Positions 5,319-29,634 of a stretch of 29,634 nucleotides of DNA are shown in pieces. The stretch lies in IMG/VR virus record IMGVR_UViG_3300042865_000217, positions 1 through 29,634 of that record, one strand, 5' to 3'. Every line of letters starts with the position of its first letter. Position 1 is the first letter of the stretch. This stretch comes from a virus. A model generated the notes under the pieces. It was given only the letters and a program-made list of their open reading frames with translations. It did not search any database and was not told the DNA's origin. Position numbers and translations under genes: made by a program.

Positions 5319-6500
5319 ATGTCTGAAGTAACTCAGGCGCTCTATAGTCAGTACCGCAACGATTGGGAAGAGGCTAAGTCACTTCTCGCTCGAGCAGCTG
5401 ATGAGAAGCGCGAATTGACCGCAGAGGAAGAGCAGCGCTGGGATGCGTTGAACACCTCGATGTCGTCAAAGAAAACCAAGATCGATCAGGTCGCAGAGGC
5501 TGAGGATCGCTCCGAGAAGATCGGCGCACTCGCTGAACGCGCACTCAAGGTCGAGAAGTCCGTTAAGGCAGACAACGATGCAGACGTACTCCGAGCAATC
5601 GCCACTGGCGAGAAGCGCTCAGGTAAGTTTGAGATTCGTGCACTGGCTAGCGGCTCAGCGACTGTTCCCGTGACGTTCGCAGACTTCGTTGTCGTTGCGC
5701 TTTCGCAGGGCAACCCAGTTTACGAAGGTGCCACCAAGATCCGCACAACCACTGGCGAGAACATCACTGTTCCGCGAGTGACGGCGAATCAGGCGACCAC
5801 TTTCGTCAGCGAAGGTTCGACCATCTCGCCTGCTGATCCAACGATCAGCAGCATCACGCTGTATGCAAACAAGATTGCCTCGATGACTCTTCTCAGCAAT
5901 GAGTTGGTTCGCGATGCAGGCTTCGATATCACGCGAGTGGTCGGTGAGGCTGCGGGTCGCAGCATCGCTTTCCTCGCTGGTTCGGCATGCACCCTCGGTA
6001 CTGGTACTGTCCAGCCGACGGGATTCATCACCGCAGCGACCAACGCACAGTTGTCGACCGCTACGAAGGCTGGTACGGTTGCGTCCACCTTCTTTGATAG
6101 CCTTGACCTTGTGACGCTGCTCTACGCTCTCGGTCCGGATTACCGAAACGCCAACACGCAGTGGCAGCTCTCGAGTGCTGCTCTTTCGAAGGTTCGGAAG
6201 ATGCAGGACACGAACGGCATGCCAGTCTGGGTTCCTGGACTTGCAGCTGGTCAGCCTGATACGCTGCTCGGCTACCGCGTAGTTGAGAATGTTCACATGG
6301 CTGCCGTCGCTTCTGCGTCGAAGTCCGTTGCGATCATTCACGCTCCGTCCTATTACATCCGCGAGCTGCCGATTGAAGTCGCGTCCTCAAGCGAGTACGC
6401 CTTCAACGCTGCGCAGATTGCCATCCGAACGCTATACGCGCTCGATGGAAACCTGCCAGATCTGACGGCTCAGCGCGTGTTGGTTTCCGCCAACACCTGA
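5319..6500 (+). CDS. Major capsid protein, HK97 fold
   Basis: This 393-aa protein has the two-part layout of HK97-type capsid proteins. A charged, helical N-terminal region (residues 1 to ~100, e.g. EEAKSLLARAADEKRELTAEEEQRW) would act as the scaffolding delta domain removed by the protease. The mature shell domain follows, from about 'FEIRALASG' onward. Its E-loop-like stretch is GATKIRTTTGENITVPRV, and further on come 'TLLSNELVRDAGFDI' and the C-terminal 'SYYIRELPIEVASSSEYAFNAAQIAIRTLY' (here split at ~residue 350). ATG 5319 has AAGGAG eight bases upstream. It follows the protease gene directly and is followed by a very strong hairpin, consistent with a highly expressed gene ending a transcript. 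Confidence 0.93.
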   Translation: MSEVTQALYSQYRNDWEEAKSLLARAADEKRELTAEEEQRWDALNTSMSSKKTKIDQVAEAEDRSEKIGALAERALKVEKSVKADNDADVLRAIATGEKRSGKFEIRALASGSATVPVTFADFVVVALSQGNPVYEGATKIRTTTGENITVPRVTANQATTFVSEGSTISPADPTISSITLYANKIASMTLLSNELVRDAGFDITRVVGEAAGRSIAFLAGSACTLGTGTVQPTGFITAATNAQLSTATKAGTVASTFFDSLDLVTLLYALGPDYRNANTQWQLSSAALSKVRKMQDTNGMPVWVPGLAAGQPDTLLGYRVVENVHMAAVASASKSVAIIHAPSYYIRELPIEVASSSEYAFNAAQIAIRTLYALDGNLPDLTAQRVLVSANT

Positions 6501-6523
6501 TCCTAGCTAACTAGGGTAGAGTT

Positions 6524-6559
6524 GCCCCTGCCGCTAGACTTCGGTCTGGCGGCAGGGGC
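6524..6559 (+). terminator. 16-bp hairpin with UUCG tetraloop after the capsid gene
   Basis: GCCCCTGCCGCTAGAC (6524-6539) pairs with the matching downstream arm (6544-6559) around a TTCG loop, with one G-T wobble. There is no long T tract afterwards, so it may be an actinobacterial-style terminator without U run, an RNA 3' end stabiliser or a processing site. Its 3' arm contains the GGCAGGGG box of the repeated element described below. Confidence 0.75.
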
Positions 6560-6625
6560 ACTCGCGTTCAGATATCTCTAACGCTAGTCCAGTGCGTCTG
6601 GATACGGGCTCTTTCGAGCTCGAAA
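6551..6625 (+). promoter_or_regulatory. Composite intergenic element, copy 1
   Basis: GGCAGGGG (6551-6558) lies 33 nt before CTAGTCCAGTGC (6584-6595), which is followed by a GGATACGG-like box and then the 14-bp perfect palindrome TTTCGAGCTCGAAA (6612-6625). The same boxes recur at identical spacings at about 23.2, 24.0 (inverted), 26.7 and 28.0 kb. In this copy the GGCAGGGG arm pairs with upstream rather than downstream sequence. It precedes the glycosyltransferase gene. Promoter, operator or RNA-processing roles are all possible. Confidence 0.75.
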
Positions 6626-6660
6626 TAGTGCTTGCTTTATAAGCAGGTTCGAGGCATGCT

Positions 6661-6676
6661 GACCGACTCTTCGGTC
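6661..6676 (+). other. Small hairpin just before the glycosyltransferase ribosome site
   Basis: GACCGA (6661-6666) and TCGGTC (6671-6676) form a 6-bp stem with a CTCT loop, ending directly against the ribosome site AAGGGAGG (6677-6684). It could tune access to the start at 6690. A second small hairpin, TGCTT-TAT-AAGCA, lies around 6632-6644. Confidence 0.45.
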
Positions 6677-6689
6677 AAGGGAGGCAAAT

Positions 6690-21868: not shown

Positions 21869-22910
21869 TCTTGAGAAGTCACTGACCGAAGCAGCTGCAT
21901 ACGAAGAGCTGCGCGCTGCGCATAATCGTGCGCTACGTGCCCTTTCAAAGAAAACTATCAACGAGCAGGAGCTGGTGGATGCTGTCTATCGTGCGGCACG
22001 AGATGCCGCTGCGATTATCAAGATTCCGCCAGTTCCTGCGCCAAAAGCAGACAAGCGCAAGGGATCCGCTGAAACATGCGTGGTGGTGCTGTCCGACTGG
22101 CAGCTCGGAGCTACGCGAGCGGGTGAGTATAGTATTGACATTGCGCGCAAGCGTATTGAGTTGCTAGCTCAGAAGGTTGAACGGCTGATTGCGATTCAGC
22201 GACAGGATCATCCTGTTGAAGAGATCGCAATCTACGTGCTAGGCGATATCGTCGAGTCCGACGGCAACATCTTCCCTTCGCAGTCGTATGAAGTGGAGTC
22301 TGGTGGTCTGTATGTCCAAATCTTCGAAGCGGCGCAGATCCTCGCAGACTTCGTACGCAAGATGGCGGCGCTTGCTCCGAAGGTGCGGGTGCGCAATGTT
22401 ATTGGAAATCATGGGCGACTCGGTCGCTACGGTGATCACTCGCCTGAGAGCAATGCAGATGCGATAACCTATCGCGTAGCTCGCGACCTAGTTCGCGAGC
22501 CGCGTGTTGATTGGCGCGAAGCATTCACGCTAGGCGCAAGGCACTGGTATGAAACCGATGATCTGCCAAGCGGCAAGGCATTCCTAGTTCACGGCGATCA
22601 GTTCCGCGGAGGCGCGTTCGGATTGCCGTACTACGCTATTGCTAAGCGCGCTCAGGGTTGGAATCTGAGTGTCGCACCATTCGACTTCCTATTCTATGGA
22701 CACTGGCACACGCCAGCGCGTCTTGTGATGTCGGACGGCTCGCATACTATCTGGGGCTCTCCTTCTATTGAGAGCGGCAACAGATATGCGCAGGAATGGC
22801 TGGCTGCTAGTGGCACGCCAGCGCAGTGGTGTCTGTTTTTCGGCAAGGATGGCGTGACGGCAGAATATCTGGTACGACTTGAAGACATTAAACGAACCGA
22901 CAAGAAGTGA
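21861..22910 (+). CDS. Calcineurin-like metallophosphoesterase
   Basis: This 349-aa protein carries the metal-binding motifs of the calcineurin-like phosphoesterase superfamily in the right order: D79-W-Q-L, GDI at 128-130 followed by VESDGN, GNH at 182-184, HGD at 244-246 and GHWH at 280-283. These enzymes hydrolyse phosphoesters, often nucleic acid or nucleotides, using two metal ions. The N-terminal ~70 residues are helical and lack motifs. The gene starts within the end of the HTH gene (8 nt overlap) without an obvious ribosome site, suggesting translational coupling. The substrate is not predictable. Such genes are frequent in actinophages at this position between structural and early regions. 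Confidence 0.88.
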   Translation: MSDLEKSLTEAAAYEELRAAHNRALRALSKKTINEQELVDAVYRAARDAAAIIKIPPVPAPKADKRKGSAETCVVVLSDWQLGATRAGEYSIDIARKRIELLAQKVERLIAIQRQDHPVEEIAIYVLGDIVESDGNIFPSQSYEVESGGLYVQIFEAAQILADFVRKMAALAPKVRVRNVIGNHGRLGRYGDHSPESNADAITYRVARDLVREPRVDWREAFTLGARHWYETDDLPSGKAFLVHGDQFRGGAFGLPYYAIAKRAQGWNLSVAPFDFLFYGHWHTPARLVMSDGSHTIWGSPSIESGNRYAQEWLAASGTPAQWCLFFGKDGVTAEYLVRLEDIKRTDKK

Positions 22911-23079
22911 GTACTGCGAAGTTTGTGAGGAGTTCACGTCGAAGGTTTACGCCTTCAACACAACTCCGCTAGGCATCGATTCGATGGGCAATCTCGTATG
23001 CGAAGAGAATGCCATATGCCTAGAATGCATCACGCTGCTCATCGCAATGGCGAAAGACAACATACTCCCAGACCAATAA
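22879..23079 (+). CDS. Small two-CxxC zinc-ribbon-like protein (TTG start)
   Basis: This frame encodes up to 66 aa with two cysteine pairs, YCEVCEEF and AICLECI, plus C55-region residues between them, a typical zinc ribbon arrangement. No ATG or GTG precedes the first CxxC in frame; TTG 22879 is the only usual start, and it lacks a clear ribosome site. The frame overlaps the phosphoesterase end by 32 nt. Because the Cys pattern is convincing, I treat the gene as probably real, with an uncertain start. Confidence 0.5.
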   Translation: MKTLNEPTRSEYCEVCEEFTSKVYAFNTTPLGIDSMGNLVCEENAICLECITLLIAMAKDNILPDQ

Positions 23080-23110
23080 TACGCTGGTAGCCTCACGGCG
23101 ATCCAGCCTA

Positions 23111-23158
23111 GACCCAGAGAGTCATGGCGCGAGCCTCCCGCTGCCACCTCTCTGGGTC
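23111..23158 (+). other. Stem-loop with 11-bp stem and inner GCGA-loop hairpin
   Basis: GACCCAGAGAG (23111-23121) pairs perfectly with CTCTCTGGGTC (23148-23158). Inside the loop, GGC-GCGA-GCC (23126-23135) can form a short hairpin with a GNRA loop. It lies downstream of the last gene of the previous unit; it may be a terminator or a structured RNA end. Confidence 0.55.
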
Positions 23159-23161
23159 GCC

Positions 23162-23189
23162 TGACCCTTCCGCTGACGCGGGAGGGTCA
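23162..23189 (+). terminator. Intrinsic-type terminator hairpin
   Basis: TGACCCTTCCGC (23162-23173) pairs with GCGGGAGGGTCA (23178-23189) around a TGAC loop, giving 12 bp with one G-T wobble. It is followed by TTTACT, a short T tract. It is placed to end transcripts coming from the left. Confidence 0.7.
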
Positions 23190-23215
23190 TTTACTATTGG
23201 AGCCGTGATTGTACA

Positions 23216-23290
23216 AACAGGGGCACCTGCCCTTGCCATCGTACAACCCTAGCCCAGTGCCGTCCTGTATGGGTTTGGTCGAGCTCGACC
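23216..23290 (+). promoter_or_regulatory. Composite intergenic element, copy 2
   Basis: AACAGGGG (23216-23223), with a CACCTG loop and a complementary arm, stands 33 nt before CTAGCCCAGTGCCGT (23249-23263). TGTATGG follows, and then the perfect palindrome GGTCGAGCTCGACC (23277-23290). The spacing from CTAG to palindrome is exactly that of copy 1. It lies upstream of the gene starting at 23439. Confidence 0.75.
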
Positions 23291-23438
23291 TTGGAAGGCT
23301 GGGGCGGCTCGAGCTCGAGAGCTCCTCCCAAAAATAGTCCGGAAACCATGGTTGCTTTTGTACAACCTTCGATGCATGATTGACTCAGGCGCTGAGGAAG
23401 CGGGTCATTCGACCAGCTGGCGCAAGAGGAGGACGAAA

Positions 23439-23687
23439 ATGCGAAAAAATATCGGAAGCGCACTCAATCAGGCGACGGGATGGCGAGAGATCCACGATCT
23501 CTATTGCCCAGATCTAATGATCGCGACGCGCAGCGATTTCGATGCGATCGCGGCATTCGAATCGATCCCGGAAGCAGTCGAAGATGCGGCGAACTCGAAT
23601 AACGAGTCCCACGAATACGCGCTCGAGAATATTGTCCAGATCTATGCGTGTGCCAAGAAGGCTGACAAGTCAAGGGAGGTACGATAA
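23439..23687 (+). CDS. Hypothetical early protein
   Basis: This 82-aa acidic protein begins MRKNIGSALNQATGWREIHD and includes 'DAIAAFESIPEAVEDAANSN'. ATG 23439 has AGAGGAGGA just upstream, so the longer open frame from 23352 is not used. It is the first gene after the main intergenic region and its stop overlaps the next start. I recognise no family. Confidence 0.6.
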   Translation: MRKNIGSALNQATGWREIHDLYCPDLMIATRSDFDAIAAFESIPEAVEDAANSNNESHEYALENIVQIYACAKKADKSREVR

Positions 23688-24016
23688 TGGGTAAGTTCAA
23701 GGATCTTGCAATCATCGAGGAAAACAAGAAGCAGGAACTGTTCCACGAGCAGGCGCTGCAGCTGCAGAGAGAGGCGAACGCACTAGCGAGTCGGATCGCT
23801 GCTCGCAAGGGCAGCGGTCTGTACCGATATCGCTTCGCTGGTCCATATGCGCCAGCGCAGTGCATCGACTGCGTGTCGGAGGTGCGCAAGCAGAACCCAG
23901 AAATGAAGCCGAACGATTGGCTGCCTGCAGTATGGGTCGGCTGGCAGTTTGACGCAGCATGTGACAGCTGCGACATGGTGCCAAACGGCGGCAGCAAAGA
24001 TCGAGCTCAAAGGTGA
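23687..24016 (+). CDS. Two-CxxC protein (putative zinc ribbon)
   Basis: This 109-aa protein has a helical, charged N-terminal half (ENKKQELFHEQALQLQREAN) and a C-terminal half with QCIDCVSEV and ACDSCDMV, two CxxC pairs likely to hold a zinc ion. A 'WLPAVWVGWQF' aromatic stretch lies between the pairs. It may bind DNA or protein, but no defined family is recognised. Its last codons fall inside the inverted copy of the regulatory element. Confidence 0.65.
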   Translation: MGKFKDLAIIEENKKQELFHEQALQLQREANALASRIAARKGSGLYRYRFAGPYAPAQCIDCVSEVRKQNPEMKPNDWLPAVWVGWQFDAACDSCDMVPNGGSKDRAQR

Positions 24017-24073
24017 CCGTATCTAACGGCACTGGGCTAGCTATGTATGCGGCTAGGGGCATTGTCCCCTGCC
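24000..24073 (-). promoter_or_regulatory. Composite intergenic element, copy 3 (inverted)
   Basis: Read on the minus strand, GGCAGGGG (24073-24066) is followed 33 nt later by CTAGCCCAGTGCCGTT (24040-24025), TAGATACGG and a GAGCTC core centred 34.5 nt after the CTAG start. All spacings equal those of the forward copies, so the whole unit is inverted. The gene downstream on the + strand (24089) has its own ribosome site AGGAGG at 24078. Confidence 0.7.
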
Positions 24074-24088
24074 AACAGGAGGACTAGT

Positions 24089-24313
24089 ATGTTACACGAA
24101 ATCAAGCAGGTCGAAGATACTCAGCCAAGTGAAGCAGGAGCGATTAGCGGATATGAAGCGGAATGCACTTGCGGATACAAGGTTCGGCGCTCGCTTCGTA
24201 CAATCGCAGTGATGGACGCTATCGAGCATTGCTTTGCCAGCACGTACAAGAATCACTTGCTTAATGGCAAGCGATCAGGCATAATGCCGTCAGACGACGG
24301 CTATGATTGCTGA
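24089..24313 (+). CDS. Hypothetical CxC protein
   Basis: This 74-aa protein begins MLHEIKQVEDTQPSEAGAIS and contains AECTCGYKVRRSLRTIA, a short Cys-turn followed by a basic helix, and ends YDC. AGGAGG is six bases before ATG 24089. Such C-x-C-G-Y segments are common in small phage proteins with a single zinc knuckle-like or rubredoxin-like turn, but the function is unknown. Confidence 0.6.
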   Translation: MLHEIKQVEDTQPSEAGAISGYEAECTCGYKVRRSLRTIAVMDAIEHCFASTYKNHLLNGKRSGIMPSDDGYDC

Positions 24314-24333
24314 AGCATATAGGAGGACTTGAT

Positions 24334-24861
24334 ATGCAGACGTTCTTACCGTATGATTCGTATCAGGAAACAGCTCGCTGCCTAGATTATCGCAGGCTGG
24401 GCAAACAGCGCGTTGAAACATTGCAGATTCTCAATGCTCTCAACGGACAGAGTCGCGGCTGGGTCAACCATCCCGCTACCAAAATGTGGCGCGGTCACCG
24501 CGTACACCTTATCTCGTACGGTATCGCTATCTGCGATGAATGGATTCGTCGCGGATACAAGGATACGTGCGGTCAAAAAATCCTAGGACATCTTGATGCT
24601 GCGTACGCTGCGCAGGAATATGACATTCCGCCATGGCTAGGTTACGAACCGCTACATTCATCGCATCGCAGCAATCTATTGCGCAAAGATTCCGCGTACT
24701 ATGGTCAGTTTGGTTGGCGCGAACGCGATGACATGCCGTATGTTTGGGTCGAGTCTGACGGCTGGGTCTGGACGGACAAGTCGGGTCGGGTCGGGTCGGT
24801 CGGGACGGCTGTACGACCCAAATCCGAACTCGACTTGCTTTATACAGCAGATCAGGCATAA
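24334..24861 (+). CDS. Pyrimidine-dimer DNA glycosylase-like protein
   Basis: This 175-aa protein begins MQTFLPYDSYQETARCLDYR and continues 'RLGKQRVETLQIL...NHPATKMWRGH...LISYGIAICDEWIRRGY'. This strongly resembles the small bacterial and phage family annotated as pyrimidine dimer DNA glycosylase / endonuclease V-like, which removes UV-damaged bases. The start at 24334 is supported by AGGAGG nine bases upstream; an upstream TTG at 24307 is less likely. The C-terminal 25 residues are coded partly by a GTCGG tandem repeat and look unconserved. Activity is inferred from family resemblance only. Confidence 0.72.
   Translation: MQTFLPYDSYQETARCLDYRRLGKQRVETLQILNALNGQSRGWVNHPATKMWRGHRVHLISYGIAICDEWIRRGYKDTCGQKILGHLDAAYAAQEYDIPPWLGYEPLHSSHRSNLLRKDSAYYGQFGWRERDDMPYVWVESDGWVWTDKSGRVGSVGTAVRPKSELDLLYTADQA
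24780..24804 (+). repeat. GTCGG tandem repeat near the end of the glycosylase-like gene
   Basis: About four copies of GTCGG in a row, then a diverged continuation (TCGGGACGG). The unit is 5 bp, so gain or loss of one unit would shift the frame of the last ~30 codons. Confidence 0.75.
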
Positions 24862-24891
24862 TGAGGGAGTTGGTTGAGGACGACCCGCTGG

Positions 24892-24914
24892 GTCGGTACC
24901 GACAGGAGGAAAAA
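24892..24914 (+). promoter_or_regulatory. Palindrome plus strong ribosome site before the HExxH gene
   Basis: GTCGGTACCGAC (24892-24903) is a perfect 12-bp palindrome directly touching AGGAGG (24904-24909). CGACCC-GCT-GGGTCG (24881-24895) can form an alternative, overlapping hairpin. Such mutually exclusive structures beside a ribosome site could tune translation, or the palindrome could be a protein site. Confidence 0.45.
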
Positions 24915-25733
24915 ATGACGAGGACTTGGGGCAAACTGGAAATCCGCAAAGGGACTAGCGTCCGAAAGTACTTTATCGATGGCGTGAAGCGCGAGGAGCT
25001 TCTCCCATTCATGCGCAAGGTTCTGCGCAACGAAGGCACGCCGAATCTCACGATGATCACTCGCAATCCTGGTCGCGGCGGCACTGCTTCCGTTAACTTC
25101 ATGGGAACAACAATCGAATTCAGTGATAAATCTAGTTTCCTTCACGAGCTCTCGCATACGCAAGTGTACGACGGCTATTGCGAACATTCAGGCAAGACGC
25201 GACGGCTGACGTGCGAATGCTCTCACTCCGTAGAGTTTCACGTGAACCTATTCAAAATGTATGCGCGATATCTCAGCAAGGATGAAGCGGCTACTGCGCG
25301 GCGAAGCGAATACCGCTACCATCCAGTAAACAGCGGGAAGGCTGCGCGCAAGGTTCGCAAGTTTGCGGAGTACCGCCAATGGAAGGCTAGCCGACGCGAG
25401 AACCGCAAGCAAGAGGTTGCTGATATCTCGCAAGAGAACCGCGACGCGGCGGCAAAGTTCAACCGCGAAGCAGCGCAAGATGCTTGGAACAGGATGGCTG
25501 AACGAAACGATTGGTCGCGTGCCTATCGAATCAATTGGTATGGACCGAACAGCATCTCTTGGACTACCGAGAAGGTATGGTACGATAACGATAAAAAAGA
25601 TTGGGTGCGCGAACCGCTTGCTGAACCAATCGCTCACGCTTGGGGACGCGGAACTACCGCGAAAGTTTACCCGAACGGCGAAGTCCGTTTGATTACTGGC
25701 AAGGTAGTGATGCGATTGGAGGTTCCGCGATGA
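24915..25733 (+). CDS. Predicted zinc metallopeptidase-like protein (HExxH)
   Basis: This 272-aa protein contains H77-E-L-S-H81 in SSFLHELSHTQVYDGY, matching the HExxH zinc motif. It is followed by a Cys/His-rich stretch (C89, H91, C100, C102, H104) and EFHVNLFKMYARYL, reminiscent of SprT-like proteins, in which a later His acts as third ligand. The N-terminal part carries 'TPNLTMITRNPGRGGTASVNFMG', and the C-terminal ~130 residues are charged and Trp-rich with no recognised motif. The start at 24915 follows AGGAGG with ideal spacing; an earlier ATG at 24861 lacks one. The substrate is unknown. Annotation as a protease rests on the motif alone. Confidence 0.62.
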   Translation: MTRTWGKLEIRKGTSVRKYFIDGVKREELLPFMRKVLRNEGTPNLTMITRNPGRGGTASVNFMGTTIEFSDKSSFLHELSHTQVYDGYCEHSGKTRRLTCECSHSVEFHVNLFKMYARYLSKDEAATARRSEYRYHPVNSGKAARKVRKFAEYRQWKASRRENRKQEVADISQENRDAAAKFNREAAQDAWNRMAERNDWSRAYRINWYGPNSISWTTEKVWYDNDKKDWVREPLAEPIAHAWGRGTTAKVYPNGEVRLITGKVVMRLEVPR

Positions 25734-25963
25734 ATAGCCGCAAGAAAGTGCTTGATCGCGGAACCGAGGGCTCTGGTAAGGGCGGTAAGGCGTGGGAGAT
25801 CTATGAGGAACTCCGCGCCGACGGCTCCGCGGAGCTGTTCGTTTACGTCAAGTCATTCCGCTTCGGTGGCTCCGTCCTGTTCGCAGCCGATATGGCTGCG
25901 GCGCGGAGCATCGTGGATGTGTACCTGCGCAGCGGGTACAATGCTGCGTGCAGTGTATGCTGA
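25730..25963 (+). CDS. Hypothetical small protein
   Basis: This 77-aa protein begins MNSRKKVLDRGTEGSGKGGK and includes 'AWEIYEELRADGSAELFVYV' and a C-terminal 'YNAACSVC'. The ATG overlaps the stop of the preceding gene and follows GGAGG, so the in-frame extension back to 25640 is rejected. The end of the gene lies inside the hairpin-rich leader described next. No family is recognised. Confidence 0.6.
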   Translation: MNSRKKVLDRGTEGSGKGGKAWEIYEELRADGSAELFVYVKSFRFGGSVLFAADMAAARSIVDVYLRSGYNAACSVC

Positions 25964-26085
25964 CGCAGCGAGTTGACTACGCTGCTGGTTGCAAGACCAG
26001 TGGCGTTCGGTTGGGCAACCAGCCGAACATTAGTTCAGGGTCGTGCGGCATGGGATCCTGCGGCGAGAGCCGTCATGATGCCGCA
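25943..26085 (+). ncRNA. Hairpin-rich leader, candidate structured RNA
   Basis: Several stems lie in a row between two genes. GCTGCGT/ACGCAGC (25943-25949 with 25963-25969) spans the upstream stop. CTGGT/ACCAG (25985-25989 with 25996-26000) forms a small hairpin. GTTCGGTTGG-GCAA-CCAGCCGAAC (26005-26028) forms a 10-bp stem with one wobble and a GNRA loop. TGCGGCAT/ATGCCGCA (26044-26051 with 26078-26085) encloses CGGC-GAGA-GCCG, a second GNRA-loop hairpin. This ends eleven bases or fewer before the AGGAGG of the next gene. It resembles a cis-regulatory RNA or structured sRNA; no known class is recognised. Confidence 0.5.
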
Positions 26086-26101
26086 AGCAGTAGGAGGTAG
26101 C

Positions 26102-26326
26102 ATGGCTACTAAGTTCAGCAACGCTGCGGAGGCAAACGCAGCAGCCGAGGCGCTCAATAGCGCCAGCGGTGCGCTCGCCGATGCGGCTCGAACAGTTGGC
26201 GCGTCAGATCCGTGGATCACGGACAAACTGACGCGTCAGTCTGGGTTCACTGGTCGCATGGCGGCAAAGATTCAGCGACTCGCTGATAAACTCAGCGAGC
26301 GCGAGAGCTCTGCGGACGCAGAGTAA
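26102..26326 (+). CDS. Hypothetical Ala-rich helical protein
   Basis: This 74-aa protein begins MATKFSNAAEANAAAEALNS and is Ala-rich and helical throughout, ending 'AKIQRLADKLSERESSADAE'. AGGAGG precedes ATG 26102 by six bases; the open frame continues upstream through the structured leader but that part is not plausible protein. The function is unknown. It may be a small coiled-coil or DNA-mimic type protein, which is a guess. Confidence 0.6.
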   Translation: MATKFSNAAEANAAAEALNSASGALADAARTVGASDPWITDKLTRQSGFTGRMAAKIQRLADKLSERESSADAE

Positions 26327-26344
26327 CAGAGGAGGAGGACTGTC

Positions 26345-26551
26345 ATGATCAAGCAGGAACGGAAGCGTCAATTCTGCAAGGGCTGCGGGTCGCGGATGCA
26401 ATATCCGTTCGTTGCCTTAAGCAGGTTCGATAATCGAACGAAAGTGTGCAGCGAGTGCGGCACTTGGGAGGCGATGATTCAGTTCGGCGCTATGGCTGAT
26501 GGAAGCAATCCACGTCAAGCGCTCGCTGGTCCAGGCAAGGCATCCGCATGA
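26345..26551 (+). CDS. Small zinc ribbon protein
   Basis: This 68-aa protein has FCKGCGSRMQYPF and VCSECGTWEAM, two CxxC pairs with about twenty residues between, the classic zinc ribbon layout. Small phage zinc ribbons often act in transcription or DNA metabolism, but no specific role is visible. GAGGAGGAGG lies just upstream of ATG 26345, and its end overlaps the next start. Confidence 0.68.
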   Translation: MIKQERKRQFCKGCGSRMQYPFVALSRFDNRTKVCSECGTWEAMIQFGAMADGSNPRQALAGPGKASA

Positions 26552-26778
26552 AGAAAGTCCGCAGCTCCGCTAGCGGAAAGCAGCTGGCATTCTGCCCGCA
26601 AGGGCATGGCGCTATGTATTGGATCGAGCAGTCAGGGAAGTACTACTGCTCGAGCCAAGAGCATGACGTCAGCGGCGCTGCGGCATTCTTCACAGAAGCG
26701 CAGTCAGAAGGTCTGCGCCGCAACACAACGAAGCGGCATATGGCAGGGGAGGTTGCCCCTGCCATACCTGCCGACTAG
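26548..26778 (+). CDS. Small zinc-binding-like protein ending in the regulatory element
   Basis: This 76-aa protein contains FCPQGHGAMYWI and YYCSSQEHDV, Cys and His pairs that could hold one zinc ion. The last residues (AGEVAPAIPAD) are coded by the hairpin of composite element copy 4, and the stop codon TAG is the TAG within its CTAG box. This suggests the C-terminus was set by the element rather than by selection on protein. The start overlaps the previous stop (ATGA). Confidence 0.62.
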   Translation: MKKVRSSASGKQLAFCPQGHGAMYWIEQSGKYYCSSQEHDVSGAAAFFTEAQSEGLRRNTTKRHMAGEVAPAIPAD

Positions 26779-26813
26779 TCTAGTGCCGTTATACACGGCT
26801 GAATGCAAGGAGG
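26742..26813 (+). promoter_or_regulatory. Composite intergenic element, copy 4
   Basis: GGCAGGGG-AGGTTG-CCCCTGCC (26742-26763) is a perfect 8-bp hairpin. CTAGTCTAGTGCCGT (26775-26789) follows 33 nt after its start, then ACACGGC, which forms GCCGT-TATAC-ACGGC. AAGGAGG (26807-26813) occupies the place held by the palindrome in copies 1-3, so the element runs directly into the ribosome site of the gene at 26821. Confidence 0.75.
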
Positions 26814-26820
26814 AACGATC

Positions 26821-26907
26821 ATGAGGACAATGATTGCTGAGGCGGCTACGGTTGCCATGGGGCTGCTCGCTATGGTGCTGTTGCTGGCACTTGGAAGCAT
26901 GTCATGA
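26821..26907 (+). CDS. 28-aa single-helix membrane micropeptide
   Basis: This very short frame has AAGGAGG eight bases before its ATG and sits right after regulatory element copy 4. The product, MRTMIAEAATVAMG then LLAMVLLLALGSMS, is essentially one hydrophobic helix. Its stop overlaps the ATG of the next small gene (ATGA). Strong ribosome site, position and coupling argue for expression. It may be a functional membrane peptide or a leader whose translation opens the downstream genes. Confidence 0.55.
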   Translation: MRTMIAEAATVAMGLLAMVLLLALGSMS

Positions 26908-27065
26908 GGCTGAATCGAAAGGGAAGTCCAGTAGTATATCAACAGGTGGCTACGCGATACCACCGACAGCTGCGACAGGCTGAGCGCTCCGCTATGCTAG
27001 CAGACATCACGCTGCTTTGCTACGGGCTGGCGTTCGTGGTATTCCTGTTCGCGGTGGTGGGCTGA
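26904..27065 (+). CDS. 53-aa membrane protein upstream of the exonuclease
   Basis: The frame begins at an ATG overlapping the previous stop and ends in a TGA overlapping the exonuclease ATG (TGATG). The product has a basic N-terminal half (MRLNRKGSPVVYQQVATRYH, RQLRQAERS) and one C-terminal hydrophobic helix (ITLLCYGLAFVVFLFAVVG). With the basic half inside, it would be a small bitopic membrane protein. No family is recognised. Confidence 0.6.
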   Translation: MRLNRKGSPVVYQQVATRYHRQLRQAERSAMLADITLLCYGLAFVVFLFAVVG

Positions 27066-28024
27066 TGCCAAAGCAGTACGAGTTCATCAAAGCAGAGCAG
27101 CGCAGCGAGGAGTGGCTGAAACTGCGCAAGGAAGGGCTGGGCGCTAGCGACATTCCTGCCGTTCTGGGCATCTCTCCGTACAAGACACCGTACCAACTCT
27201 GGGCGGAGAAGCGCGGCGATGTTCAGCCACCCAAACTGGGTGCGGCTGCAAATCGTGGCGTACTGCTTGAGGATTCGGTAGCGAAGTGGTACGAGCAAGA
27301 AAAGAATGTGAAGGTGCGCGTGTCGAATGGTGTTGTGCGCATGAAGAAATATCCATGGGCAATGGCATCACTCGACCGAACGATTGTCGGAACGGACGGA
27401 CTGCTCGAAATCAAGACGAGTTCATCTCCGCGCTGGTCGCTGTATCCTGTTCCTCCTGAAGTGGTGGCGCAAGTGCAGTGGCAAATGATGATCACGGGAG
27501 CGCCATGGGTTGACGTAGCCGCACTACTCGGAGGGCTGACCTTCCGTGTTGAGCGAGTTGAAGCGTCGAACCAGTATCAGCTGGAGATGTTCCGTAAGGC
27601 GCAAGACTTCATGGAGCGCGTGAAGTCTGGTCGTGCGCCAGCTGTTGCGGGATCCGATTCCGATTACTTCGCGCAGCTGCACCCGCAGCAAAGCGAGGAA
27701 TGGGAGTTGGCTGATTCCGCAGCTGATCGACTCGCAATAGAATACCGTGAAGCATCGGAGGAGGAACGGCTCGCAAGCGAAAAGATGCAGGATATCTCGA
27801 TGGCGTTGAAGGAAATGATTGGAGGTAAGGTTGGCATTATGGGTCGCGGATGGCAGGCTACGTGGAAACAGAACAAGCCATCGCTCAAGACAGACTGGCT
27901 GGAGGTAGCCGATTATGTGCGCGTGTGGGATCCAGCCACCTACGAGGAGCTATTGAAAAAGCATACTGAAGAGAAGGCTGGTTCGCGCGTATTCCGATTC
28001 AAGGTACAGAACGAAGGTGAATAG
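27065..28024 (+). CDS. YqaJ-type recombination exonuclease
   Basis: This 319-aa protein fits the YqaJ / lambda-exonuclease-like family, which chews 5' strands of double-stranded DNA to make tails for annealing. Motifs are WLKLRKEGLGASDIPAVLG (residues 17-35), RGVLLEDSV with E69, SLDRTI with D104, LLEIKT with E115 and K117, and QVQWQM with Q136-Q138, matching the D-ExK nuclease core. The frame is open 48 nt upstream, but ATG 27065 overlaps the preceding stop and begins the natural MPKQYEFIKAEQRSEEW. It is followed by regulatory element copy 5 and then the annealing protein, a classic exonuclease-annealase pair. Confidence 0.88.
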   Translation: MPKQYEFIKAEQRSEEWLKLRKEGLGASDIPAVLGISPYKTPYQLWAEKRGDVQPPKLGAAANRGVLLEDSVAKWYEQEKNVKVRVSNGVVRMKKYPWAMASLDRTIVGTDGLLEIKTSSSPRWSLYPVPPEVVAQVQWQMMITGAPWVDVAALLGGLTFRVERVEASNQYQLEMFRKAQDFMERVKSGRAPAVAGSDSDYFAQLHPQQSEEWELADSAADRLAIEYREASEEERLASEKMQDISMALKEMIGGKVGIMGRGWQATWKQNKPSLKTDWLEVADYVRVWDPATYEELLKKHTEEKAGSRVFRFKVQNEGE

Positions 28025-28095
28025 GCAAGGGCACCTGCCCCTGTTTATATACAGGACTAGCGCAGTGCCGTTAGACACGGCTAACTGCAAGGAGG
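28024..28095 (+). promoter_or_regulatory. Composite intergenic element, copy 5
   Basis: GGCAAGGG-CACCTG-CCCC (from 28024, starting on the last base of the previous stop) stands 33 nt before CTAGCGCAGTGCCGT (28057-28071). Then comes ACACGGC, forming GCCGT-TAGAC-ACGGC. AAGGAGG (28089-28095) is at the same distance from CTAG (32 nt) as in copy 4. Confidence 0.75.
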
Positions 28096-28102
28096 AATAG
28101 CA

Positions 28103-28891
28103 ATGGACGGAACGAACAAGAGCGAAACGAACGCTGCGGTTCTCGCAGCGTTGGAAGCGCCATTCTCGCCAGAGCTGGTGCGTGAACGCGTAGGTCACTC
28201 TGGGTTTAAAATGAAGTGGGTTCCTGCTCGCGCAGTCGCGCAGCGGCTAGATCAGGTTCTCGGTATTGCGGGATGGGATTTCTACGTGCATCCTGTCGGT
28301 GAAAGCAACACTGTTGCCGCCACCTTGACGATTCATTTCCCTGACGGTCGGTCAGCAACGCGAATGGATTTCGGATACGAAACAGGAGGCTCAGGCGAAT
28401 CGTTGAAAGAAGCATCTTCCGACGCGCTGCGCAGGGCTGCTTCTTTGTTCGGCGTAGCGCGGTATCTCTACATGGGAGAGCCAGCTCCGCGTGCAGCATT
28501 GCCGCCTAAGTCAGTGAACAGCGTGCGTGAAAACAGGTACGCGCCACCCGCGCCAGTTGACGGAAGCGTATTCGATTCGCGTTCCGACGATGCGCAAATC
28601 CTTAAGGCAGCGATGAGTTTCGCTTCGAATGTTGCTGAGGGCAACTGCCCAGAGCACGATGTTGCTTGGACACTGAAGCCAGCTGGGACTAGCAAAGCAG
28701 GTAAGCCGTACGCGGCATTCTATACTTGCGGAGCGAAGGATGCGAACGGCTGGTGCAGGAATAAGCCATCCCTGAAGTGGCTGGCTGCTAATCCGATTAA
28801 GGAGGAGCGAAGGGCTGAACATCTGATTGACCTTCCGATTGATCCGCCGAAGTTTACTTCGGATGAAGTCGGCGAAGAGTTGCCATTCTGA
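28103..28891 (+). CDS. Rad52-like single-strand annealing protein
   Basis: This 262-aa protein resembles the Rad52/Sak-type phage annealing proteins. The core is AQRLDQVLGIAGWDFYV (residues 46-62), then a strand with 'FPDGRSATRMDFGYETG', then 'GESLKEASSDALRRAASLFG' and 'VARYLY', a signature familiar for this family. The C-terminal third has C182, H185, C209 and C218, consistent with a zinc-binding module, and an acidic end (SDEVGEELPF) as often seen in single-strand DNA-binding partners. Paired with the exonuclease upstream, it would catalyse recombination by annealing. AAGGAGG is seven bases before ATG 28103. Confidence 0.82.
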   Translation: MDGTNKSETNAAVLAALEAPFSPELVRERVGHSGFKMKWVPARAVAQRLDQVLGIAGWDFYVHPVGESNTVAATLTIHFPDGRSATRMDFGYETGGSGESLKEASSDALRRAASLFGVARYLYMGEPAPRAALPPKSVNSVRENRYAPPAPVDGSVFDSRSDDAQILKAAMSFASNVAEGNCPEHDVAWTLKPAGTSKAGKPYAAFYTCGAKDANGWCRNKPSLKWLAANPIKEERRAEHLIDLPIDPPKFTSDEVGEELPF

Positions 28892-28903
28892 TAGGAGGAG
28901 AGC

Positions 28904-29634
28904 ATGAAGTACGAAGCAGTTATAGCACCATCGTTGCAGGGTATGGCGGTCGATATCATGTCGGTCAAAGCGCACCCTAAGAATATCAGGAAGCACAAGA
29001 TCGAAGCGATCCAGCGTTCGCTTCAGAAGTACGGTCAGATGAAGCCGATCGTGGTTCAAACCAAGACAGGCTACATCATTGCGGGAAATGGTACGTGGAG
29101 TGCTGCTTCCGCACTGGGTTGGGAAACTATTGCGGTGAACTACGTGGACGTAGACGACCATACCGCTATGGGATTCCTGCTCGCTGATAATAAGGCGAGC
29201 GACCTGTCGGCGTACGATACCGAGAAACTGAAGGATGCGCTCACGCTGCTATCGGATGGTCCAGGATTGTTCGATACGCTGTGGACTATTGACGAGTACG
29301 AGGACTTGCTAGCGCAGGATCCAGCTGCCGTCACTATGCCATACGAGGAGTTCAAGGGAGGCTACGCCGAAACAGAGGAGGAGCTGCGCGCACGACTGGA
29401 GCATGTCAATCGCGCAACGGATAACTCTGGTGCTAGCCGTTCAGCGATGAAGGAAGTGCCGCTGCTGATTAAAGCAGATGAGCACGCTGCCTTCGTTAAG
29501 CGATTGAAGACTGTTGGCGCCAAACTAGGCGAGAGCAGCATTCTGGGAATCATCTTCGCGTGCGTTGCGTATACCGAGGAACATCTCGGCATCGGCACAT
29601 CGCAGAGCGAAGGCAATACAGCAGGGGCACCTGC
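28904..29634 (+). CDS. ParB-like nuclease-fold protein, 3' end beyond the window
   Basis: The frame opens at ATG 28904 after GGAGGAG and stays open to the window edge (243 codons, no stop). The N-terminal ~110 residues match the ParB-like domain: HPKNIRKHKIEAIQRSLQKY, PIVVQ, then IIAGNGTWSAASALGW and 'LADNKASDLSAYD'. Such domains occur in phages as stand-alone proteins or fused to DNA methylases. The later part (RSAMKEVPLLIKADEHAAF...) is not recognised. The last codons enter the start of regulatory element copy 6. Partial. Confidence 0.8.
   Translation, partial: MKYEAVIAPSLQGMAVDIMSVKAHPKNIRKHKIEAIQRSLQKYGQMKPIVVQTKTGYIIAGNGTWSAASALGWETIAVNYVDVDDHTAMGFLLADNKASDLSAYDTEKLKDALTLLSDGPGLFDTLWTIDEYEDLLAQDPAAVTMPYEEFKGGYAETEEELRARLEHVNRATDNSGASRSAMKEVPLLIKADEHAAFVKRLKTVGAKLGESSILGIIFACVAYTEEHLGIGTSQSEGNTAGAP
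29620..29634 (+). promoter_or_regulatory. Composite intergenic element, copy 6 (truncated by window edge)
   Basis: AGCAGGGG-CACCTGC matches the first 15 bases of copies 2 and 5 closely. If the spacing holds, a CTAG box should begin at position 29653, outside this window. The gene above is still open here, so its stop would fall in the element, as in copy 4. Confidence 0.55.

Follow-up and report, generated by a model that had tools for sequence, protein, structure and literature searches.

What does a densely folded stretch of RNA do between two small phage genes? The question arises from a gap of 138 nt that separates two early-region genes, 25730-25963 and 26102-26326, of a phage fragment (IMG/VR record IMGVR_UViG_3300042865_000217), the whole 29,634 nt of which (29.6 kb) is referred to here as the window. 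The terminase and the capsid protein encoded in the window are 46% and 35% identical, respectively, to those of Pontimonas phage phiPsal1, and we therefore consider the host to be probably an actinobacterium of the Microbacteriaceae. The gap sits within a cluster of co-directional genes, ~1 kb upstream of the gene for a RecE-like exonuclease; a search for the latter in GTDB returned one 6-kb contig of a Rhodobacteraceae MAG and was of no use for host assignment. The upstream gene (+ strand), an open reading frame whose translation comprises 77 aa, ends in a UGA stop followed by C and had no match in PHROG, Pfam or phages. The downstream gene (+ strand) encodes an Ala-rich protein of 74 aa, and its ATG at 26102 is preceded by a Shine-Dalgarno AGGAGG (26092-26097, +). 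A search for tRNA and tmRNA found none, and the gap yielded no promoter in a sigma-70 scan.

The region 25943-26101 had been described as a chain of hairpins, and every element named in that description was borne out at its position. Along the + strand, H1 (25943-25969) overlaps the stop codon and end of the upstream gene (the fold of 25943-25972 has −17.3 kcal/mol, and 93 of 4000 codon-resampled versions were as stable), H2 (25981-26004) consists of 10 bp with a GCAA loop closed by a U-G pair (pair probabilities 0.94-0.99), and H3 (26005-26028), which adjoins H2 directly with 0 nt between them, likewise has 10 bp and a GCAA loop (0.68-1.0). They are followed by H4 (26044-26085), predicted as an 8-bp stem enclosing a GAGA-loop hairpin (26060-26064/26069-26073), with pair probabilities of ~0.5 in the outer stem and ~0.88 in the inner one and with rival local folds in competition, and by H5 (26096-26110), a small hairpin that holds the AUG in its loop (0.79-0.86). 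The whole region folds at −76.9 kcal/mol, and the comparison with dinucleotide shuffles, a check proposed beforehand, came out on the side of structure (z = −4.36, 0 of 200 shuffles; z = −4.25, 0 of 300 in a repeat run). This strength stems from H2 and H3: the stretch with H2, H3 and H4 alone (25978-26086) reaches z = −5.2, whereas the last 72 nt (26030-26101, H4 plus the ribosome site) are ordinary and fold no better than chance (z = −1.17, 34 of 300 shuffles). We also compared the gap with others in a set of 107 gaps of 60-420 nt, drawn from the window, 20 locus pieces of related phages, phiPsal1 and two flanking pieces of a close relative. In this set it ranks 11th by z, and no other gap is predicted to fold with two GNRA hairpins of 5 bp or more.

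The preliminary description went further and saw in these hairpins an RNA switch, on the grounds that 25984-25992 could pair instead with 26015-26023. The two 9-mers do match perfectly, but the alternative is uncompetitive: when forced, it yields −22.4 kcal/mol versus −33.6 kcal/mol for H2 and H3, i.e., it is 11 kcal/mol weaker, and it is broken in both relatives, where the substitution U25990C abolishes it and converts the closing pair of H2 from U-G to C-G. Nor is the ribosome site of the 26102 gene specially occluded, as its opening cost of 8.2 kcal/mol is 10th among 29 genes and falls by just 0.3-2.7 kcal/mol when the upstream strand is masked. The weak alternative fold, its loss in the relatives and the ordinary opening cost thus give no sign of a ribosome-site switch, and the pair of exclusive folds of similar energy, one of them hiding the ribosome site, that characterizes a riboswitch was not found. 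What stands of the proposed new structured RNA is that the RNA is strongly structured and absent from Rfam, while its reading as a switch is unsupported. The covariance-model search against Rfam 15 gave no match at gathering score to any curated family, and permissive thresholds gave sub-threshold overlaps only. Since two other gaps of this phage have tandem hairpins in the same layout (see below), the region looks more like gene-boundary punctuation than a new RNA switch or a ligand-sensing RNA.

Conservation could be followed over a short distance. The locus with both flanking genes was found only in two near-identical contigs (98-99% identity), and a search for the upstream gene in viral contigs and GTDB genomes returned the same two contigs only. 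Across the three genomes, U25990C is the single substitution in 159 nt; this local conservation says little because the close relatives do not diverge evenly, with no difference at all in 24067-25989. Other phages of the group, collected via their terminase (nearest at 63-87% identity), gave no match to the locus or its flanking genes, many of their records being fragments. Apart from the near-identical relative, a covariance model found no homologue when run over 612 kb of sequence from related phages and pattern-matched contigs and over the full length of 46 records. The exact H2 pattern occurs in 28 IMG/VR contigs, including the two near-identical relatives, and the remaining ones scored at most 12 bits with the covariance model. 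A match in G017 (15.3 bits) presumably represents the same orthologous region, judging by its length and place. Two sets of candidates were rejected: a blastn match in L149 (E 1e-4) is spurious and falls in a glycine-rich tail gene, and weak covariance-model matches in L163, L161 and L168 (~12-16 bits) were discarded when read in context, those in L163 lying inside called coding sequence. The 3' end of the element, GCCGCAAGCAGTAGGAGG, recurs in related phages ahead of another small gene, where a hairpin covaries in part; beyond this stretch the sites do not match the element, and homology is therefore confined to GCCGCAAGCAGTAGGAGG at most.

H2 starts 17 nt past the stop codon (25961-25963) and H3 finishes 65 nt past it; with both no more than 80 nt from the stop and a spacing below 15 nt, they are placed as hairpin-cluster terminators are. 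They do not form a classical Rho-independent terminator, in which a GC-rich stem is followed by a U-run: H3 is followed by ATTAGTTCA, and a terminator-consensus scan of 22000-29634 did not call the region because of this missing U-run. Among 38 gene ends, the most stable 100-nt stretches behind a stop codon are those at 6500, 25963 and 23079. Behind the stops at 6500 and 23079 come tandem hairpins, then a sequence that we call the E core and, later, a ribosome site, and 25963 follows this order but with a degenerate core. For example, the module after the capsid gene (6501-6609, +) has tandem hairpins at 6501-6516 and 6519-6563 and then the E core of copy E6 (6584-6609), and the module at the 23079 end (23080-23274, +) has tandem hairpins at 23111-23158 and 23162-23189 and then E1 (core 23249-23274).

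The E core is part of an intergenic module, E, with at least six copies in this phage: 6584-6609 (+), 23217-23274 (+), 24015-24071 (−), 26744-26800 (+), 28026-28082 (+) and a sixth at 29603-29634, which is cut by the window end and could be completed just beyond it from the close relative L064 (reverse strand, ~2823-2880). In E1-E5 a dyad, GGGGCANNTGCCCC, is followed after exactly 21 nt by the core, CTAGNNCAGTGCCGTTANACACGGC, and in three copies AAGGAGG comes closely after the core. One copy is inverted, which favours a signal at the DNA level (promoter or operator); the module was not found outside this lineage. When matches to the core were ranked over both strands of the whole window, two sequences in the hairpin gap came second (Fa, 25992-26017, +) and fourth (Fb, 26030-26055, +) among non-E matches, with 9.0 and 7.3 bits, respectively, versus >31 for the true copies in the window. 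Fb occupies the place of the E core in the other modules, and the centre of H3 lies 13 nt ahead of its TTAG. Shuffles of the gap reached the best core score in 7 of 2000 cases and the second match in 0 of 2000, small P values that serve as leads, given that the tests of E-core resemblance, like those of the long-range stem described below, were chosen post hoc. No GGGGCANNTGCCCC dyad is centred 21 nt before CTAG in the gap, as it is in E1-E5; the gap is therefore not a full E module. The E core in it is a degenerate resemblance only.

We tentatively favour the reading that the gap is a gene-boundary punctuation module in the phage mRNA. H2 and H3, behind the stop of the 25730 gene, would terminate or attenuate transcription as a hairpin cluster that lacks a U-tract and would also, or instead, be a barrier guarding the 3' end of the upstream transcript, i.e., the hairpins would stop or slow polymerase or nucleases. 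The next stretch would supply the degenerate copy of the E core, with the 26102 gene's ribosome site behind it. The core, which the phage places before several genes, may act as promoter or operator and presumably starts or controls their transcription, the promoter reading being one of position only. The punctuation reading is founded on the predicted stability of the hairpins, their place behind the stop, the layout common to three gene ends and the E-core resemblance, which is statistical, and gaps of related phages that also combine a hairpin, a promoter-like pair TTGACA-N18-TAnnAT and AGGAGG count for it. If it is correct, the gap is one of three strong hairpin-cluster boundaries in an uncultured relative of actinobacterial phages, and illustrates how phages of this kind may keep genes insulated with no U-tract terminator.

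Punctuation alone leaves one feature unexplained, namely a long-range stem, P1, with its associated codon-choice signal. In folds of longer context, 25953-25978 (+), which contains the UGA stop, is predicted to pair (probability mostly >0.9) with 26112-26139 (+), within the first codons of the downstream gene, thereby enclosing H2, H3, H4 and the start-codon hairpin; this stem was not among the pairings first described. It is the main reason for keeping in play a role in translational coupling, in which P1 would close a multibranch domain that ribosomes arriving at the upstream stop would open, so that both proteins are made together. P1 is present in the minimum-energy fold of 25943-26140, and the stretch 25953-26139 has z = −6.65 (0 of 300 shuffles). 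The duplex between 25950-25980 and 26105-26144 (−35.0 kcal/mol) was equalled by 0 of 1480 other segments of the window. Synonymous resampling of the downstream codons reached its energy in only 36 of 4000 cases (and the total fold in 135 of 4000), which is moderate evidence that P1 is under selection. Against coupling, resampling of the upstream codons did not weaken the total fold, which was as stable in 2749 of 4000 cases; the opening cost of the ribosome site is ordinary and, as noted, hardly depends on the upstream strand; and 138 nt is a long gap for a mechanism that a review describes as most efficient at small distances (PMC12548453). We regard coupling, the main rival of punctuation, as possible but unlikely. 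Should the closing stem be real, a DNA phage would pair the stop codon of one gene with the start of the next and so couple two proteins. A variant, which we consider improbable, is a lineage-specific multibranch mRNA domain of ~190-200 nt, closed by P1 and with the pair of GCAA hairpins inside, in which ribosome passage, possibly with UGA readthrough, would set the ratio of the two proteins.

Other explanations bear on the hairpins or on the frame. A lineage-specific RNA, either cis-regulatory or small, whose role would involve a ligand, a protein or processing or which would act as a put-like cis antiterminator, would account for the strong fold and for adjacent GCAA-loop hairpins that are unique among the 107 gaps; Rfam, however, gives no match, among the sequences searched the covariance model found its homologue only in the near-identical relative, and the alternative fold proposed for it does not compete, which makes such an RNA a doubtful candidate. 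Translation of the gap itself, by readthrough at UGA-C or from an upstream start, would place the pairing within a coding linker between two ORFs that share a frame. The 46 intervening codons are free of stops, U25990C is a synonymous third position in the shared frame, and the codon score of 0.04 lies above what stop-free shuffles give (mean −0.31, P = 0.012). The same score, however, ranks at the 6th percentile among true coding segments, the choice among synonymous codons is unremarkable (P = 0.10), third-position GC is not raised, an open frame has a chance of ~20% and a shared frame one of 1/3, and a clear AGGAGG precedes the ATG at 26102. A weak case is left for in-frame readthrough past UGA C into the 46 open codons, and we hold a translated gap to be highly improbable. 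Finally, z lies below −3 in about a quarter of the gaps across this phage group and the part with H4 and the ribosome site does not surpass its shuffles, as might be the case for a functionless chance structure in a GC-rich gap; but H2 and H3 are far beyond shuffles and the layout recurs at two other gene ends, and chance is accordingly a very unlikely source of the whole.

Structured gaps were also observed elsewhere in this phage and its relatives. No non-coding stretch of the window is more stable than 6501-6689 (z −8 to −9), which has a 16-bp UUCG hairpin and others, and many relatives have comparable hairpins behind the capsid gene. A structured leader precedes a small gene in L160 (10866-10996), L153 (11023-11156), L157 (7509-7636) and L169 (5590-5718), and its last hairpin carries some compensatory base changes; GCCGCAAGCAGTNGGAGG is common to the present locus and to the leader in L160 and L169, and in L169 and L172 the ribosome site is able to pair with an ACACC stretch upstream. 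A promoter-like module occurs in L161 (10403-10552), L168 (1324-1497), L149 (9620-9783), L151 (8506-8670) and L164 (12752-12896), in the order hairpin, TTGACA-N18-TAnnAT with a GTGACGTCAC palindrome in the spacer, leader hairpin and AGGAGG. The palindrome varies together with a second half-site (GTTGC in L151), and the module looks like a repressed early promoter. In phiPsal1 (L066), the gap before the capsid gene (5568-5763) starts with GGGGCCGGAAGGTTTCGACAGC, recalling the 5' end of tmRNA, and ARAGORN found no tmRNA in it.

Among known systems, the put RNA of phage HK022 consists of two side-by-side stem-loops in a phage early transcript. It brings about processive antitermination by RNA-only action (PMC11658703), and the two side-by-side hairpins are the sole resemblance we draw; its host group is another, and the present hairpins do not stand where an early transcript begins. 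The large, ornate phage-associated RNAs GOLLD and ROOL (PMC12286853) are likewise structured RNAs of phage intergenic regions, whereas the element described here is far smaller and without an Rfam match at gathering score. In the Min Jou interaction of MS2, which couples coat and replicase (PMC11339067), an upstream gene also pairs with the start region of the next and passing ribosomes would open the pairing; in our case the stem uses the last codons and the stop, is much longer and does not strongly shut the ribosome site. Hairpin-cluster terminators, for which poly-U is unneeded, lie at most 80 nt after the stop with less than 15 nt between hairpins (Gupta and Pal 2021, PMC8355165), and the tandem hairpins behind gyrA of M. 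smegmatis are cited as such a case (PMC8355165). Our gap differs from them in its GNRA loops and in a co-directional gene that follows 138 nt on, and termination is here something we infer; it shares with them two adjacent stable hairpins, <80 nt from the stop and <15 nt apart, without poly-U. A hairpin-cluster boundary is thus the most economical reading, of a kind described in bacteria generally and with a form of its own in this phage lineage.
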